Notes under the pieces: model-generated
Told to the model about the DNA's origin: nothing
Database searches by the model: none
What the model saw: only the letters and a program-made list of their open reading frames with translations
Made by a program: the position numbers and the translations under genes
From: Thiorhodococcus drewsii AZ1
GTDB taxonomy: Bacteria > Pseudomonadota > Gammaproteobacteria > Chromatiales > Chromatiaceae
Direction: 5' to 3'
NCBI RefSeq assembly: GCF_000224065.1
Contig: NZ_AFWT01000003.1
Span: 1 to 64,000 of the forward strand
Length of the DNA: 64,000 nt
Shown here: piece by piece, positions 51,929 to 62,621 of the stretch
Layout of the letters: each line of letters begins with the position of its first letter
Position numbering within the stretch: the stretch's first letter is position 1

Positions 51929-52543
51929 CTATTCGAGCGGGCGATTGCCTTCGGGTGGGGGGGCTAATGGAACGGGCTGGCTGGGTCTGAGCGGTAGACC
52001 GAGCGCGGTCCAGCCGTCGGTGCCGCGTGGATACCAGCGTACCTGTCGATAGCCGTAGGCGGCGGCCCGTTTGGCGGCGTTCCAGGACATCCAGCAGTCC
52101 GCCTTGCAGTAGAAGATGAGCGCCCGGTCGGGATTTTCCTCGGTGAGACGGTCGAGCTGCTCTCTGAAATAGGTCTCCAGGCGCGGCGAGAGTCGACCGT
52201 AGCCGACGTTGGCGAGCCAGACGGAGCCCGGAATATTGGAGTGGGGCGGCGGCAGCCAGAGCGCATCATCCGGCAGGTTCGCCGGTCGCTCGGGACTCGG
52301 CAGGACGTCGATCGCAACCGCCCGGCCGGTCGAGAGCATCCGCGCGGCCGCTTCCGTGGTGAGCCGTGTGGCGCCGGGTGGTGTCTCGGGAACCGGGGCC
52401 TGGAATCGGGCGATGCGGTATCCGTCCGCGTCGAAGAGATCCTGGGTGCTCGGATTGTCCTGGCCACCTGGATCGGCCAAGGCCGTTGCGGTCAGCAGCA
52501 GTGCGCAGAGCCCGAGGCCCATGCGTTTCGGTGCTCGGCGCAT
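51929..52543 (-). CDS. PQQ-dependent catabolism-associated CXXCW-type rhodanese-like protein
   Basis: 204 residues with a signal peptide (LGLCALLLTATALA). The mature part is rhodanese-like and ends with the family hallmark LIFYCKADCWMSWNAAKRAAAYGY (split here as CKADCW at Cys146 to Trp151). Proteins of this group are found next to PQQ-dependent alcohol dehydrogenases and are exported; they may act in maturation or sulfur/redox chemistry of the quinoprotein. It begins 3 bases after the xoxJ stop, confirming membership of the xox operon. ATG 52522 (MGLGLC) is an alternative start. Confidence 0.88.
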   Translation of the reverse strand: MRRAPKRMGLGLCALLLTATALADPGGQDNPSTQDLFDADGYRIARFQAPVPETPPGATRLTTEAAARMLSTGRAVAIDVLPSPERPANLPDDALWLPPPHSNIPGSVWLANVGYGRLSPRLETYFREQLDRLTEENPDRALIFYCKADCWMSWNAAKRAAAYGYRQVRWYPRGTDGWTALGLPLRPSQPVPLAPPPEGNRPLE

Positions 52544-52546
52544 GGT

Positions 52547-53392
52547 TCAGTCGGCCTGGATCGGACGGTCGGATTGGTCCAAGAGCGGCACGCCATAGCT
52601 CAGCAGAATCTCCTGGATCTGGGGTTGCAGATGGTCGAGCGTCTGGTTGATCTGGTGCTTCCAGGTCGTTTCGCGATGACGGATGCCCATGGAGACGTTG
52701 AAGGCCATGGTAACCCCGTCGATCTGGGCCGGCAGTGGCATCAGGGTCAGCGGCGTCTCCTGGCGCTCGGCGTAATAGCCGGCGATGGGTCCCCAGATGA
52801 TGGCGAGATCCGTCTCGCCCCGAGCCACGTCACGCACCGCGTCGCGAGCCGGGGCATAGAGACGGGTGTCGACCGTGCGTTCGTAGGAGTGCATGTGGTC
52901 GAGCAGGCCGAGCCGGGTCAGCAGCGTGACCGGTGGTGTGCCGGCCACCACGCCGATCCGCAGACCGGACAGGGTCGGGTCTCCCGCCGTGAGGGTCTTG
53001 AGCTTCAGGTTCGAATCGGCACGGTAGACGAGGCTGTAGACCGATCGGTAATAGGGATTGGTGTTCTGTACCAGTTCGCTGACCGAGCTGATTCCGGTGA
53101 TCAGGTCGCAGAGTCGGGTGCGCAGCGTGTTGCGGACAAACCCGATGGTCTGCGGCCACCAGCGATAGTGGATGGGGCGCCCGAGATCCTGAGCGATCAG
53201 CTCGGCAATCCGGTTCTCGAAGCCCTCGCCTCGGTCGTTGGAGAAGGGCAGGCTATTGGGATCCGCGCAGACGGTCAGGTAGCGACCGCTGCGCGCCTCA
53301 TGGCCCTGTTCCGCCAGGGCCGCGCCGCTGCCGCCGAACGTCAGGAGACAGAGGGCGATCAGCGCCCCTTTAGTTCGTCGCGGCTTGGGCAT
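52547..53392 (-). CDS. xoxJ: Quinoprotein-associated periplasmic solute-binding-like protein XoxJ
   Basis: 281 residues, with a signal peptide (IALCLLTFGGSGAALA). The fold is a family-3 solute-binding protein: LTVCADPNSLPFSNDRGEGFENRIAELIAQDLGRPIHYRWWPQ, LCDLITGISS and LKTLTAGDPTLSGLRIGVVAGTPP. This is the MxaJ/XoxJ group that accompanies methanol dehydrogenases. It is thought to assist assembly or activation of XoxF in the periplasm rather than to serve transport. It overlaps the 3' end of the cytochrome gene by 23 bases. Confidence 0.9.
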   Translation of the reverse strand: MPKPRRTKGALIALCLLTFGGSGAALAEQGHEARSGRYLTVCADPNSLPFSNDRGEGFENRIAELIAQDLGRPIHYRWWPQTIGFVRNTLRTRLCDLITGISSVSELVQNTNPYYRSVYSLVYRADSNLKLKTLTAGDPTLSGLRIGVVAGTPPVTLLTRLGLLDHMHSYERTVDTRLYAPARDAVRDVARGETDLAIIWGPIAGYYAERQETPLTLMPLPAQIDGVTMAFNVSMGIRHRETTWKHQINQTLDHLQPQIQEILLSYGVPLLDQSDRPIQAD

Positions 53393-53849
53393 TTTTCGTA
53401 ACCTTGGGGAATTTGTCCGGTCTGGCCGTGCCGATGACCCCGTCGGCGCGCGCCTTGAGATAGGCGTAGATGTCGCTGATGTAGGGCAGCACGTTCATGT
53501 TCGAGGCGAAGGAGGGCATGACGCGTTCGTCGAGTCCGGTGCGTCCGTGGATGACCACGTCGACGAACTGGTTGAAGGTCAGGACCTGCATCGATTTCAT
53601 CAGTGCGGGGGCGTAGGAGCTGCCCAGTCCCGCCGGGCCATGGCAGACGTGGCACTCCGAGTGATAACGGCGGAATCCGTTGTAGGTGCCGAAGTCGACC
53701 TTGCCGTCTTCAAAATAATAGGGTGTCTCGGGCGAGAACTTGAAGCTGAGGTAGCCGTCCGCTGTGGTGGCGGCGAATCCGGGCAGGGCGGTTCCGATCA
53801 GCAGGGTGGCCGCGAGCAGGTGCGGACCGAGTGGCTTGCTGTTGCGCAT
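53370..53849 (-). CDS. xoxG: Cytochrome c partner of XoxF (XoxG-type)
   Basis: 159 residues. A signal peptide (LLAATLLIGTALPGFAA) precedes a mono-heme cytochrome c domain with CHVCH at 66-70. The likely axial Met is Met111 in RVMPSFAS. The N-terminal mature segment GYLSFKFSPETPYYFEDGKVDFGTYNGFRRYHSEC is characteristic of methanol-oxidation cytochromes. It would accept electrons from the PQQ of XoxF in the periplasm and pass them to the respiratory chain. A 12-pair hairpin (53881-53912) separates it from xoxF, and it overlaps xoxJ downstream. Confidence 0.9.
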   Translation of the reverse strand: MRNSKPLGPHLLAATLLIGTALPGFAATTADGYLSFKFSPETPYYFEDGKVDFGTYNGFRRYHSECHVCHGPAGLGSSYAPALMKSMQVLTFNQFVDVVIHGRTGLDERVMPSFASNMNVLPYISDIYAYLKARADGVIGTARPDKFPKVTKNAQAATN

Positions 53850-53920: not shown

Positions 53921-55876
53921 TCAGTCGGGCAGTTCGAAGACGGTCAACTGTCCGCCCAGCTGGGAGTAGTCGCTGAGCGAGGCGTAGGCGCCGACCGCGC
54001 CGAGACCGGCGTTCGGTTCGGTCAGACCCGCCGCCATGCCGATGCCGGCCCAGCCGCCGAGACCCGAGAGGACGGCGATGTACTGCTTACCCTTGTGGGT
54101 GTAGGTGTTGACGTTGCCGATGATCCCGGAGGGCGTCTTGAAGCGGTACAGCTCCTTGCCCGTCTTGGCGTCGACTGCCTTGAGATAACCCTCCAGGGTG
54201 CCGTAGAAAACCACGTCTCCGGCCGTCGCCAGCGCGCCGCTCCACACCGAGAACTGCTCGGGGACGGACCAGACGATCTTGCCCTCCTGCGCGTCCCAGG
54301 CGATGAAGTTGCCCAGATTGGTGCCGCCTGGCGCCGGATACATGCTGACCGTGGCGCCGACATAGGGTTGGCCGGCCGCATAGGCGATCTGGAAGGGCTC
54401 GTAGTCCATGCAGACGTGATTGGTCGGCACGTAGAAGAGGCCGGTGCGTGGCGAGAAGGATGAGGGTTGCTGATCCTTGGTGCCGAGGGCGGCGGGACAG
54501 ACGCCGGTGGTGTTGACGTCCTCGCCGTTCTGGTCGGTGGAATACTTGGAGACGACCTGCGGACGTCCGGTCTTCATGTCGATATGGGTTGCCCAGTTGA
54601 CGGCGGGGTCGAACTTCTCCGCGACCAGCAGCTCGCCCGTGACGCGGTCGAGCGTGTAGCCGAATCCGTTGCGGTCCATGTGGACCAGGAGTTTGCGGAC
54701 GTTGTTCGCGGGTTCCTCGGCCGCTGCAGTCTGTGCCTCAGCCGGATCGGCCGCCGCCGGCTTGCCTGGGATGAGCGAGCGCCATTTGAAGCCCTTTTCG
54801 GGCTTGGCCTCTGTCGTGTCCGCCGTTGCCGCCGTGGTCTGGGCGGTCGACCCCGCAGCCGAGCCGGGGAAGGGGAGGTCGACCAGGATCATCTCGTTGA
54901 CGCCGTCGTAGTCCCATTCGTCGTGCGGGGTCATCTGGAACAGCCATTTGGCGACGCCCGTGTCGGCGTCGCGTGCGAAGATGGTCATGGACCAGCGGTT
55001 GTCGCCTGGACGCTGCGAGGGGTTCCAGGTGCTCGGGTTACCGGTGCCGTAATAGATGAGGTTCAGCTCGGGATCGTAGGAATACCAGCCCCAGGTGGTG
55101 CCGCCGCCGATCTTCCACTGGTCGCCTTCCCAGGTGGCGATGCCCGAGTCCTTGCCGACCGGTTTGCCGAGATGGGTGGTCTTTTCGGGATCGATCAGGG
55201 TGTCGGCGTCAGGCCCCATCGAATAGGCGCGCCACACCTGCTTGCCAGTCTTGGTGTCGTAGGCGGTCAGATAACCGCGCACACCGAACTCGCCGCCACT
55301 GATGCCGACATAGACCTTGTCCTTGACGACCATGGGGGCCGAGGTGCCGGTGCCTCCCTTGGAGGGGTCGCCGTTGACCACCGACCAGAGCTTTTCGCCG
55401 GTCTTGGCGTCGAGCGCGACCAGCGTGGTGTCGGCCTGATAGAGGAAGATCTTGCCGTCCCCGTAGGCCACGCCACGGTTGACCGTATCGCAACACATCA
55501 CCGGGATGACGCTGGTGTCCTGGCGCGGCTCGTACTTCCAGATGATTCGACCCTGGTCGTTGAGGTCGAGCGCGAACACCTTGTTGGGGAAGGGGGTGTG
55601 GATGTACATGATGTCGCCGATCACCAGCGGGCCACCCTCGTGACCGCGCAGCACTCCGGTCGAGAAGGTCCAGGCGACACGCAGATTCTTGACGTTGTCG
55701 GCGTTGATCTGATCGAGCTCGCTGTATCGGGTGCTGGCGTAGTCGCCGTTCTGCATGACCCAGAGATTCGGGTCCTGCTGCAGTTCCAAGAGCTCTTCGT
55801 TCGAAAAGCTGCTAGCGCTGAAGGCGAGCGCGGCGGATGCGCAGGCGATCAGCAATGAGTTCTTTGGGGTTGGCAT
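53921..55876 (-). CDS. xoxF: Lanthanide-dependent PQQ methanol dehydrogenase XoxF
   Basis: 651 residues, signal peptide ([17 protein letters not shown]) and an eight-bladed propeller. The vicinal disulfide is Cys128-Cys129 ([10 protein letters not shown]). Expected metal ligands are Glu196, Asn280 and catalytic Asp322. Asp324 in [11 protein letters not shown] is the extra Asp that marks lanthanide-using XoxF (MxaF has Ala). It oxidises methanol or related alcohols in the periplasm. The C-terminal repeats ([30 protein letters not shown]) are typical. Residues of about 336-393 are an Ala/Thr/Pro-rich insertion that other XoxF proteins I know lack; it accounts for about 50 residues over the usual length of about 600. 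The ATG 55876 lies 11 bases after GAGGAGG. Confidence 0.95.
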
Positions 55877-56479: not shown

Positions 56480-56587
56480 ATGCCTTCACTCGATCCTCCG
56501 ATCGAGCCCTTTCGGACACAGTATCTGGCGGTTGGTGGCGGTCATCTGCTTGCTGTTGAGGCGTGCGGCCTGTCGGACGGTTGTTGA
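56480..56587 (+). pseudogene. 5' remnant of a prolyl aminopeptidase gene
   Basis: 35 codons after a GAGGTGG ribosome site. The sequence MPSLDPPIEPFRTQYLAVGG, followed by GHLLAVEACG, matches the N-terminus of proline iminopeptidases (L-x-PPIEP-[FY]-R, G-H-L, E-x-CG). It then meets a stop after LSDGC. No HGGPG oxyanion-hole motif or later part of the gene is found in any frame downstream, so this is a truncated remnant. The assignment rests on a short segment. Confidence 0.5.
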
Positions 56588-56790
56588 CCGCCTCTTCAGT
56601 GTCTCGACGCAGATCCCCCGCGCTTGTCATTCGGATGGAGCGCGAGCGCAATCTGCTCCCCTTGCGGATTGGTTCGGCGCTGAATTCTGGTGTCGTTCCT
56701 GGGTCGCGCTGCGCTTCCCCCAGGCGGCTTTGGTGCTTGGGTGGGCTTGGCGGTTGCCAAGTGTCTGTTTGGTGCGCAAGATGGCGCGCC

Positions 56791-58536
56791 ATGCTGTTTC
56801 GCAGATTTTTCCACCATCGGCCGCGCCTGAATCTGGAGGCGCTTCGGCTGCGTCTCTCGCGGCCGGACGCGCTCTTCTGGCATGCCCTGCTGGGACTGAT
56901 CGCGGGGTTGGCGACCGGGGTCCTGATCGTCGGTTTCCGGCTCTCGGTCGAAGGGCTCCAGGCGGTCATGCTGCCGCTGCATGGCGAGAACTACGAGGCG
57001 TTGTCGCTCGGGATGCGTCTGCTGCTGCCCCTGGCCGGGGCGCTGGCCATCGGTGTGATCTTCGTTCGCTTCGCCCAGGGGATCCCGGTGCTCGGCGTGG
57101 CGCGCGTCATGGAGCGCATGGAATATCACCAGGGGCATCTCAGAGCGCGCGGGCTGGTGCTCCAGTTCGTCGGAGCGGCGATCGCCATCGTCAGCGGTCA
57201 CTCGGTCGGGCGCGAGGGACCGCACGTCTATCTGGGCGCGGCCAGCGGCAGTCTGATCGGACAGGGGCTCACCCTGCCCAACAACAGTATCCGCAACATG
57301 GCGGCCTGTGGCACGGCGGCTGGGATCGCGGCCTCCTTCAACACCCCGCTGGCCGGCGTCATCTTCGCGCTCGAGGTGCTGGCGCTGGAATACAGCATCG
57401 CCGGTTTCATCCCCATCATCCTGGCCGCAGTCAGTGCCAACGCGGTGTCGGTCGCCGTGTTCGGCAGCGCGCCCGTCTTTCGGGTGCATCCCTTTCTGCT
57501 GACGTCGCTCTCCGATCTGCTGCCGGTGGCGGTGCTGGGGTTGGCTGCGGGCGCGATGTCCGCCGCCTACATTCAGGCGTTGCAGAGCTGCGCGCAATTC
57601 GGCAAGCGGTTCCCCTATTTCTGGCGAATCGCTCTCGCCGGGTTGGCCGCCGGGCTGTGCGGGATGCTGGTTCCGGAGGTGATGGGGCTGGGTTACGACA
57701 CCCTGGACCGCCTGCTGGTCGGTCAATTGCCCTGGGCGTTTCTGCTGGTTCTGCTGCTGCTCAAGCTGATTGCGACCTCGACCAGCGTGGGGTTCGGCAT
57801 TCCGGGTGGAACCATCGGTCCGGCGCTGTTCATGGGGGCGGTGATCGGCAATCTCGTGGCGGGCCTGGCCGGTCTATGGGTGCCCATCGATGCGAGCCAT
57901 GCCAGCTACTATGCCTTGCTCGGCATGGGGGCGATGATGGGCGCAAGCCTGCAGGCGCCGCTGGCCGCTCTGACCGCCATCGTGGAGCTGGCGCACAGCC
58001 CTGGCGTCATGATGCCGGGGATGCTGGCGATCATTCTGGCGGTCGTCACGACCAGCCAGCTGTTCCGCAAGGATTCGCTCTTTCTCGGCGTGCTGCGGGC
58101 CAACGGACTGGATTACCGCGCCAATCCGGTGGTCTCACTGCTGCGGCGCAGCGGGGTGGGCGGGGCGATGAATACCAATTTCAGACGTCAGGCGGCTCTC
58201 ATGACCCGGGATGCGGCAGAGCGCCTGATGGCTGAGGGGCCTGAATGGATCATCATCGAGACGGCCAGGGGGCCTTCGCTGCTGATGCCGGGGATCGCGA
58301 TCGCCAGCCATCTCGCCCAAGACCCGGAGGCACAGGAGATCGATCTGCTCGCGATTCCGGCCGAGCGGCTCGAACTGGCAGCTGTCCATCTGCAGGCGAC
58401 GCTCCAGGAGGCGCTCGACATCCTGCGTTCGCGGGGCGTGGAGGCGCTCTATGTCCAGCGCCCGATCGCCCCTGGAATCGATCATATCTACGGCGTTCTG
58501 ACCAAAGGCCGGATCGAGTCGGCCTATCGCTACTGA
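56791..58536 (+). CDS. CLC-family chloride channel/transporter with CBS domains
   Basis: 581 residues, about 10-12 membrane segments. The CLC selectivity motifs are present: GIPVLGV (about 97), GHSVGREGPHV with the gating Glu at about 142, and GIPGGTIGPALFMGAVIG (about 330-349). The C-terminal part after about 460 resembles a pair of CBS domains (MTRDAAERLMAEGPEWIIIE; LDILRSRGVEALYVQ). It moves chloride or another small anion, by channel or proton-coupled exchange; the sequence alone does not settle which. ATG 56791 starts the conserved region; GTG 56761 would add ten residues. Confidence 0.9.
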   Translation: MLFRRFFHHRPRLNLEALRLRLSRPDALFWHALLGLIAGLATGVLIVGFRLSVEGLQAVMLPLHGENYEALSLGMRLLLPLAGALAIGVIFVRFAQGIPVLGVARVMERMEYHQGHLRARGLVLQFVGAAIAIVSGHSVGREGPHVYLGAASGSLIGQGLTLPNNSIRNMAACGTAAGIAASFNTPLAGVIFALEVLALEYSIAGFIPIILAAVSANAVSVAVFGSAPVFRVHPFLLTSLSDLLPVAVLGLAAGAMSAAYIQALQSCAQFGKRFPYFWRIALAGLAAGLCGMLVPEVMGLGYDTLDRLLVGQLPWAFLLVLLLLKLIATSTSVGFGIPGGTIGPALFMGAVIGNLVAGLAGLWVPIDASHASYYALLGMGAMMGASLQAPLAALTAIVELAHSPGVMMPGMLAIILAVVTTSQLFRKDSLFLGVLRANGLDYRANPVVSLLRRSGVGGAMNTNFRRQAALMTRDAAERLMAEGPEWIIIETARGPSLLMPGIAIASHLAQDPEAQEIDLLAIPAERLELAAVHLQATLQEALDILRSRGVEALYVQRPIAPGIDHIYGVLTKGRIESAYRY

Positions 58537-60493: not shown

Positions 60494-61447
60494 ATGCACG
60501 GCTTGCTTACCAATCTCGAATTCGCCCTTTCCGTCACCGGCCCCATCATGCTCGTCCTTGCGCTTGGGGTCTGGCTCACGCAGCGCGGTCTGCTGACGGA
60601 CGCCTTTGCCGATGTCGGCTCCAGGCTGGTCTTCAATGTGACCCTGCCGATCCTGCTCTTCATCACCATCAGTCAGACCCATTACACCCAGGCGGCGAAT
60701 CTGCGCTTATTGGCGGTGGGCTTGATGGGAACGCTGGTGAGCTATCTGCTCTTCGAGCTGATTGCGGCGGTGACGGTGGCGCCGCGTCGGGATCGGGGCG
60801 TGGTGGTGCAGGGCGCCTTTCGCGCCAACATGGGCATCGTGGGGCTGGCCTATTGCGTCAACGCCTATGGAGACGTGGCGATGGCGACGGCCGCGCTCTA
60901 TCTCGGCGTGGTCACGCTCTTCTTCAACGTGCTGGCGGTCATCACGCTCAACCGCTCGCTCAGCGAGCATCGGTCGCTCGTACCCATCCTCAAGGACATT
61001 GCCCGCAATCCGCTGATCATCGCCATCCTCTCGGCGTTGCCTTTCGCCTATTTCGAGGTGCGGCTGCCGGATCTGCTGCTGCAGACGGGCGAGTATTTCG
61101 CCCAGATGACCCTGCCGCTCGCCCTGCTCTGCACCGGCGGATCCATGAGCCTGCGGGCGCTGCATCTGGATTCGCGCAACGCCCTCATCGGCGCCTTCGG
61201 CAAGGTGGTCGTCACGCCGCTGGTGGTGACCGGGATGGGCTATCTGGCTGGATTGCGGGGCATAGAACTCGGCATCCTCTTCCTCATGTCATCGGCGCCG
61301 ACCGCCGCTGCCAGTTATGTGATGGCGCGCGCCATGGGCGGTAACGCCGCGCTTGCGGCCAACATCATCGTGTTGAGCACCATCGGTTCCATGGCCTTCA
61401 CCAGCCTGGGTATTACACTGCTCCATACGTTTGGGCTCATCCGGTAA
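60494..61447 (+). CDS. AEC-family membrane transporter
   Basis: 317 residues with about ten membrane helices in two inverted halves, as in auxin efflux carrier (AEC) proteins. Typical motifs are [38 protein letters not shown] and, in the second half, [16 protein letters not shown] and [19 protein letters not shown]. The substrate could be an organic acid or amino acid; context does not tell. The 3' end overlaps the 3' end of pqqE by 11 bases, on opposite strands. Confidence 0.88.
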
Positions 61448-62621
61448 CGATCGTTCGGTCGACGTGCCTGGTTGGTGCGGCATCGGTCTCCGGCAGACCT
61501 ATGTGTCGCTTGGAATTGCGCATGTTGCGGAAGATGAGCGGGGCCTCCAACTGTGCGGGCTGTTCGGTCGTGATCTGGACCTGACGGCGCAGCTCCGCGT
61601 GGTGCGGCGACTTGGAGCAGACCGGATCGGCGTTGGCGGGATCGCCGGTGAGCAGATAGGCCTGGCAGCGACAGCCACCGTAATCCTTGGTCTTCTCGTC
61701 GCAGGAGCGACAGGGTTCCTTCATCCAGCCGTCGCCGCGAAAGCGGTTGAAGTCGGGCGAGTCGTTCCAGATCCAGTCGAGATCGTGCTCGCGGACGTTG
61801 GGAAAGCTCAGTCCCGGCAGCGAGCCGGCGGCATGGCAGGGCAGGGCGGTCCCGTCCGGGGCGACGGTGAGGAAGATCGCGCCCCAACCGCTCATGCAGG
61901 CCTTGGGGCGCTCCTCGTGATAGTCCGGGACCACGTAGAAGATCTTCATCTGACCCTTGAGTCGTTCCTGGTATTCATGGGCGACAGCCTCGGCCTGCCG
62001 CACCTGCTCGCGCGTCGGCAGGAGTTGGTCGCGGTTGAGCATGGCCCAGCCGTAATACTGGGTGGTCGCCAGTTCGACATAGTCCGCCTGCAGCGCGTGC
62101 GCCATGTCGAGGATCTGGGCGACCTCGCCCGTGTTGTGCCGATGGAGGACGAAGCAGAGCACCATGGGGTAGTCGTACTGCTTCACCAGTCGGGCCATCT
62201 CCAGCTTGTGCTGGAAGGAGTCGTTGCCGGCGATGAAGTCGTTCAGCTCGGCGCCGCTGGCCTGGAAGCTGATCTGGATGTGGTCGAGCCCCGCCTCCTT
62301 GAAGGCACGGATGCGACGCTCGTCCATGCCGATGCCGGAGGTCAGCAGGTTGGTATAGAAGCCGAGCCGATGCGCCTCGGCGATCAGCTCCTCCAGGTCC
62401 TTGCGCACCAGGGCCTCGCCGCCCGAGAGCCCGAGCTGGACGGCACCCATGGCGCGCGCCTCGCGAAAGACCCGGAACCAGTCCTCGGTCGAGAGCTCAT
62501 CGGCGTACTTGGCCATGTCCAGCGGATTGGAGCAGTAGGGACACTGGAGCGGACAGCGATAGGTCAGCTCGGCCAGCAGCCAGAGCGGCTTAGGCGTCGA
62601 ATTGGATCCATTGGTTGTCAT
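61437..62621 (-). CDS. pqqE: PQQ biosynthesis radical SAM enzyme PqqE
   Basis: 394 residues. The radical SAM cluster motif is [13 protein letters not shown] (Cys23, Cys27, Cys30). The C-terminal SPASM part has [25 protein letters not shown] and [21 protein letters not shown], for auxiliary iron-sulfur clusters. It cross-links Glu and Tyr of the PqqA peptide, the first chemical step of PQQ formation. The end [33 protein letters not shown] has about 20 residues beyond the family's usual ending. It overlaps pqqD by 32 bases. Confidence 0.96.

Follow-up and report, generated by a model that had tools for sequence, protein, structure and literature searches.

A rare insertion at a surface turn of the XoxF methanol dehydrogenase of Thiorhodococcus drewsii AZ1

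Introduction

In PMC8546591, the aspartate pair of XoxF2 is given as Asp299/Asp301, a role is assigned to the extra Asp, and an Asp preceding the metal-binding Glu is described as diagnostic of the XoxF1 clade. Within the family of Thiorhodococcus drewsii AZ1, XoxF has been reported in Thiodiazotropha symbionts, for which methanol is a possible energy source (PMC11171427 and PMC8307296). XoxF in phototrophs seems little studied. Xox homologues are reportedly also able to act in tetrathionate oxidation, and tetrathionate may be a substrate to bear in mind for a sulfur bacterium, although the XoxF described here has a full metal site and xoxGJ partners. To our knowledge, it is not settled how the soluble XoxF stays near XoxG and the membrane, and we know of no other tether in a XoxF than the candidate discussed here. 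The literature searched contained no description of a tether in any XoxF and no published account of a XoxF insertion at the turn between DEWDYD and DRNG. The window, i.e., the whole 64,000-nucleotide stretch of T. drewsii AZ1 DNA analyzed here, encodes a XoxF with such an insertion.

Results

The xoxF gene and its product

The gene has an open reading frame that translates to a XoxF of 651 residues.

53924..55876, (-) strand: xoxF, lanthanide-dependent methanol dehydrogenase, 651 aa, stop codon at 53921-53923; assigned from PDB relatives and an NCBIfam profile
54905..54913, (-) strand: D322-Y323-D324, catalytic Asp and lanthanide-specific Asp; matched by motif to Asp299/Asp301 of XoxF2 (PMC8546591)

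The nearest PDB relatives found by phmmer, 6oc5 and 6dam, are both XoxF. The protein scores 761 bits against NCBIfam profile TIGR03075 (cut-off, 480) and also matches PF01011; with a Foldseek match to 6oc5, these assign it to the PQQ alcohol dehydrogenase propellers of the methanol/ethanol family. The extra Asp two positions past the catalytic Asp is present (D322 and D324 in WDYD), and MxaF-like relatives, e.g., L147, have Ala at that position. E196, N280, D322, D324, and R402, the active-site residues as matched by motif, are all kept; this assignment follows in part the XoxF2 paper cited above. R402 is taken to be the PQQ-contacting Arg. Membership of XoxF1 was ruled out, as GGEFG has Gly ahead of E196, the metal-binding Glu by motif. 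On the question of XoxF5, the nearest PDB sequences are 6oc5 (Methylobacterium extorquens) and 6dam (Methylomicrobium buryatense), both assigned to XoxF5. The host assembly (5.5 Mb in 141 contigs) contains a single full XoxF match; its second match at an E value of ≤0.001 is an 81-residue piece with 33% identity to XoxF. By the sequence tests made here, the protein is a XoxF that is otherwise canonical, and the first-pass annotation was right in this respect, since family profile, fold, and active-site residues all fit.

Position and extent of the insertion

The insertion site is a beta-hairpin turn following [13 protein letters not shown], between two strands assigned by DSSP on the structural model.

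54872..54889, (-) strand: beta-strand 330-335, entering the turn
54704..54865, (-) strand: insertion, residues 338-391; delimited by length surveys and alignment with Thiorhodococcus minor, and absent from the other XoxF proteins examined
54677..54700, (-) strand: beta-strand 393-400, leaving the turn

F336 sits 12 residues past D324 of WDYDG, and the D333-R394 spacing is 60 residues, versus 7 in canonical relatives (e.g., KEIKGKM), a net gain of 53. An insertion of about 55 residues, as first annotated, is therefore real, given the open frame, the net gain, and a homologous loop in T. minor. Its boundaries have been narrowed: the earlier coordinates, 54697-54871, do equal residues 336-393 (plus one base), but the insertion proper covers about residues 338-391 (54704-54865). 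The earlier term “low-complexity” suits the Ala/Pro/Thr/Glu-rich linkers but not the core between them, [11 protein letters not shown], which is nonrepetitive.

Distribution of the long turn

Turn length was taken as the number of residues spanning DEWDYD to DRNG. The 202 loci yielded 152 distinct open frames, in which this span comprised 33 residues in 140 frames, 34 in 9, and 37 in 1, and the only long turns were those of T. minor (79) and the window XoxF (86). The 80 similarity-ranked loci are the best 80 of 591 by similarity to the window XoxF, and distant XoxF clades are thinly represented. Apart from the two carriers, only L137 (G329), a 780-aa frame, exceeded the usual length, and only slightly (37 versus 33). 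Ten loci lie outside the count: L064 and L093 (both 33 by separate measurement), L200 (canonical turn), L170 (a different PQQ enzyme), and the weak matches L002, L099, L115, L117, L118, and L119.

Samples of the class (369 genomes, 36 with matches) and the phylum (398 genomes, 43 with matches) provided 52 further places, which include MxaF-like and other PQQ dehydrogenases; these comprised every match in the two samples that had no locus yet, leaving aside one in G356 and the split window. Turn length was read in 43 of these and was always 29 to 34 residues (27 with 33, 13 with 34, and 3 with 29); of the remaining nine, L222, L250, L252, and L254 have short turns, and L219, L221, L224, L248, and L249 were left out. 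About half of GTDB species are represented in the genomes searched. Within the order of the host, 23 of 210 genomes match XoxF, one of which (G094, 43% identity) has another PQQ enzyme, and the insertion is carried by 2 of the 22 genomes with XoxF. Long XoxF proteins do exist, but in one of them, L211 (635 aa matched), the additional residues fall outside this turn. The same loop in many XoxF proteins, which the first-pass annotation had named as a refuting finding, was not found: 149 of the 152 frames have 33 or 34 residues, and the 43 further places have 29 to 34. A widespread loop is thus rejected within the genomes sampled by the turn length surveys, and the insertion is real and rare.

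Anatomy and divergence of the loop

The loop consists of two linkers and a core.

54794..54865, (-) strand: N-terminal linker, residues 338-361, Ala/Thr/Ser rich; 3/18 aligned residues identical to T. minor
54761..54793, (-) strand: core, residues 362-372; 8/11 identical to GFKMRSLLPGR of T. minor, net charge of +3
54704..54760, (-) strand: C-terminal linker, residues 373-391, Ala/Pro/Glu rich; 7/18 aligned residues identical to T. minor

By alignment, the loops of the two carriers are homologous: the raw score is 83, and none of 5,000 double shuffles reached it (maximum, 65). The score of the core by itself (46) was attained by shuffled loops in 122 of 5,000 trials. The core consensus of both carriers, GFK[W/M]RSL[I/L]PG[K/R], is basic-hydrophobic and 11 residues long, with three differences (W/M, I/L, and K/R). 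Identity is 8/11 in the core and 10/36 aligned residues in the linkers (Fisher P = 0.010, with the core picked post hoc), and the N-terminal linker alignment contains a six-residue gap. The core has a net charge of +3 and the linkers one of -5. Outside the insertion, 505 of 568 residues of the mature protein are identical to those of T. minor (276/309 plus 229/259), i.e., a difference of about 11%, and only 67 of 544 11-residue windows in this body have ≤8 identities, the others scoring higher. On these counts, conservation of the core is intermediate: it exceeds that of the linkers but falls short of that of most of the XoxF body. Loop divergence between the carriers is high (dS of 1.6 and dN of 0.57), the corresponding body values being about 0.5 and 0.07; around the core (residues 362-374), dN is 0.43 versus 0.07 in the body, and dS is 0.71 versus 0.47 to 0.51.

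Direct repeats within the insertion are short and imperfect only (the longest, 22 nt at 77%), and local tandem duplication was rejected as the origin of the loop. Copying from another host gene was also rejected, as the best match to the loop elsewhere in the host genome had an E value of 0.94. No Pfam match to the loop was obtained up to an E value of 1, and the best PDB match (E value of 0.39), a thylakoid phosphoprotein, is apparently compositional; a known motif or domain, or a recognized docking motif, was discarded on these grounds. When the loop with its flanks was searched against 194 genomes of the family, the matches listed were exclusively XoxF down to an E value of 0.002, and below this the matches listed were weak ones plus one more XoxF.

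Predicted structure and location of the turn

The AlphaFold2 model of the window XoxF, built with 61 aligned XoxF-family proteins, is a confident propeller (mean pLDDT of 83.8) whose best Foldseek match is 6oc5 (TM score of 0.97 by target length, rmsd of 1.6). pLDDT falls below 50 over residues 340-388 in this model and over residues 342-380 in that of T. minor XoxF (mean pLDDT of 85.1), the remainder of both proteins being well predicted; the two models were built from the same 61 sequences and hence do not count as independent. The core is not helical in either. Predicted disorder in both agrees with the first-pass description of the insertion as a surface loop.

Its placement near the active site found no support. 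In both models, D322/D324 precede strand 330-335 and R402 follows strand 393-400. Neighboring strands of a propeller blade run antiparallel, and the turn should therefore be at the other end of the blade from these residues. It should lie about one strand length (20 to 30 Å by strand rise) from D322/D324/R402, on the far face of the modeled protein.

Relationship of the carriers and gene neighborhood

In a 116-row XoxF-family tree (quick method) from which the insertion had been cut in both carriers, the carriers are sisters (SH-aLRT of 91) and are nested within same-family XoxF proteins without the loop. The simplest history, given this sister position in a loop-free tree, would be a single gain in the common ancestor of both carriers' XoxF. 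The T. minor locus (L018) and another retrieved from G121 (L003) are the same gene (164/164 sampled 30-mers in common). Compared with 17 family members, 10 body residues of XoxF are common to the carriers only, of which P335, F336, P337, V393, and M400 adjoin the turn.

The following genes accompany xoxF.

53370..53849, (-) strand: xoxG, c-type cytochrome, 159 aa; TIGR03874, 138 bits, under the cut-off of 161.75
52547..53392, (-) strand: xoxJ, periplasmic binding-protein-like, 281 aa; TIGR03871, 286 bits, cut-off of 212.15
51929-52543, (-) strand: rhodanese-like ORF, identified by eye
56563-58536, (+) strand: ClC-type chloride channel-like gene, identified by eye
61437-62621, (-) strand: pqqE-like radical SAM gene, identified by eye
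L018 2687-4432, (-) strand: ClC-type channel-like gene of T. minor, adjoining xoxF
G000:C139:102402-102875 (L205): fae, formaldehyde-activating enzyme, same contig as xoxF, at a distance of about 47 kb

xoxG and xoxJ adjoin xoxF downstream, as is expected of the neighbors of a XoxF. Lanthanide use and methanol oxidation are predicted, and fae on the same contig is compatible with this. Residues common to the carriers only number 2/159 in XoxG (G32 and L34) and 4/281 in XoxJ, in comparisons of 26 and 15 loci, respectively, some of them partial and two from one organism; cochange of these partners with the loop was judged weak and rejected. The rhodanese-like ORF follows xoxJ and has homologues in four of five loci compared (L018, L019, L021, and L023) but no match in L022; the operon may regularly include it. 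The ClC-type gene adjoins xoxF, as does its T. minor counterpart (73% identity), and was unmatched in the remaining four loci of the comparison. This pattern points to shared inheritance of the segment by the two loop carriers. Homologues of the pqqE-like gene occur near xoxF in L019, L021, and L022, and further pqq-like genes (by eye) lie beyond it, toward the end of the window. Reaction-center genes of the host are represented by two neighboring PF00124 matches on contig C138. With T. minor (G121) in its family, the host is taken to be one of the purple sulfur bacteria, within a broadly defined Chromatiaceae.

At the thresholds applied, xoxF and fae are both missing from another member of the host genus, G049, and methylotrophy genes are therefore patchily distributed; the genus may have seen the gain or loss of a methylotrophy block. 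A relative with a 7.7-Mb genome (G106, genus g36; L105 and L169) has a remnant-like xoxF (contig C3, 313101-313787) in which the open frame runs to 304 aa, an internal piece is missing, and two stop codons interrupt the match, while xoxF is whole in G126 and G167 of the same genus.

Discussion

What the loop may do

The reading placed first, tentatively and at somewhat less than an even chance, is that the loop serves as a disordered tether, specific to this lineage, that bears a short contact motif. It would have been gained once, in the ancestor of the window and T. minor XoxF, at a surface turn of one blade far from PQQ and the lanthanide, and XoxF itself would be a normal enzyme passing electrons to XoxG, as expected from its family. 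The two variable Ala/Pro/Thr/Glu linkers would present the 11-residue basic-hydrophobic core, GFKxRSLxPG+, which may weakly contact the membrane surface or another periplasmic protein as a putative partner; such contact could keep the soluble dehydrogenase close to its electron acceptors. A tether is favored because turn length is nearly fixed elsewhere and yet the insertion persists in two species about 11% apart, and because the core, with a charge of +3 within linkers of -5, is more conserved than these linkers and changes conservatively. A conserved basic-hydrophobic core is a possible fit to membrane or protein contact. This reading is weakened because the core is less conserved than most body windows and is given a helix by neither model.

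Close behind it stands tolerated padding, itself a little short of evens: replication slippage or a fortuitous in-frame insertion in the common ancestor, at a surface turn where it did no harm, would have produced a loop with no specific role, and the core would be alike merely through kinship of the two species. Rapid divergence of the linkers, including an indel, disorder in both models, a loop base away from the active site, the elevated dN around the core, and the small number of carrier-specific residues in XoxG and XoxJ are all consistent with padding. Against it, turn length barely varies among the other XoxF proteins examined, the core outdoes the linkers in conservation with conservative changes only, and the loop persists in two genera. 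With two carriers and eleven residues, padding and a tether are inseparable here; the high dN around the core and the 122 of 5,000 shuffle trials that attain the core score also keep their odds close.

Much less probable is a loop that acts as a lid or gate at the PQQ entrance, or touches the cytochrome at that site, and so alters substrate access or specificity. D322/D324 are close by in sequence, a chain of 54 residues could extend around the molecule, and G32 and L34 of XoxG are common to the two carriers only. However, strand order in both models puts the turn at the far end of the blade and disfavors an active-site lid, contrary to the earlier suggestion of restricted substrate access; the five active-site residues are all kept, and XoxG is otherwise not distinctive. 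An assembly or sequencing artifact, which the first-pass annotation had allowed for, can be virtually dismissed, as an independently sequenced isolate, T. minor DSM 11518, bears a homologous in-frame loop (net gain of 46) and the composition of the segment is like that of the remainder of the gene (GC content of 0.65 to 0.71, inside the xoxF range of 0.59 to 0.72).

Should the tether reading hold, the GFKxRSLxPG core could in the boldest version, which we regard as unlikely, be a new docking element tying some purple sulfur bacterial XoxF to the periplasm-facing membrane or to a periplasmic partner in the photosynthetic or respiratory chain, with electrons from lanthanide-dependent methanol oxidation being fed in locally. 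The insertion has a conserved core and is missing from close relatives that share the operon, which makes it a well-defined test object. A loop without function would still reveal a permissive position in the methanol dehydrogenase propeller that would be useful for tags or electrodes. The enzyme is known and the insertion itself is new, and its import is modest unless the core turns out to act in docking.

Comparison with known systems

XoxF of M. buryatense (6dam) resembles the window XoxF in fold and sequence (63% identity) but has no loop at this turn and has a separate short insertion near its own residues 468-476. M. extorquens XoxF (6oc5/6oc6) shares the fold, with the TM score and rmsd given above, and 68% identity, but it also lacks the loop, and the phmmer alignment breaks at query residues 339/394 and target residues 335/337. 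XoxF proteins of the same family, including those of Thiodictyon and “Candidatus Thiodiazotropha” (L004, L005, L006, L009, L010, L023, L108, and L111), are 79 to 85% identical, and the operon is the same in L019 and L023, the loci examined; unlike the window XoxF, these proteins have a turn of canonical length. In T. minor DSM 11518 (L018), the loop is 7 residues shorter and its linkers are largely different, but XoxF is 84% identical overall, the homologous loop occupies the same turn and has the same core, and the locus shares both the xoxFGJ order and the neighboring ClC-type channel gene.
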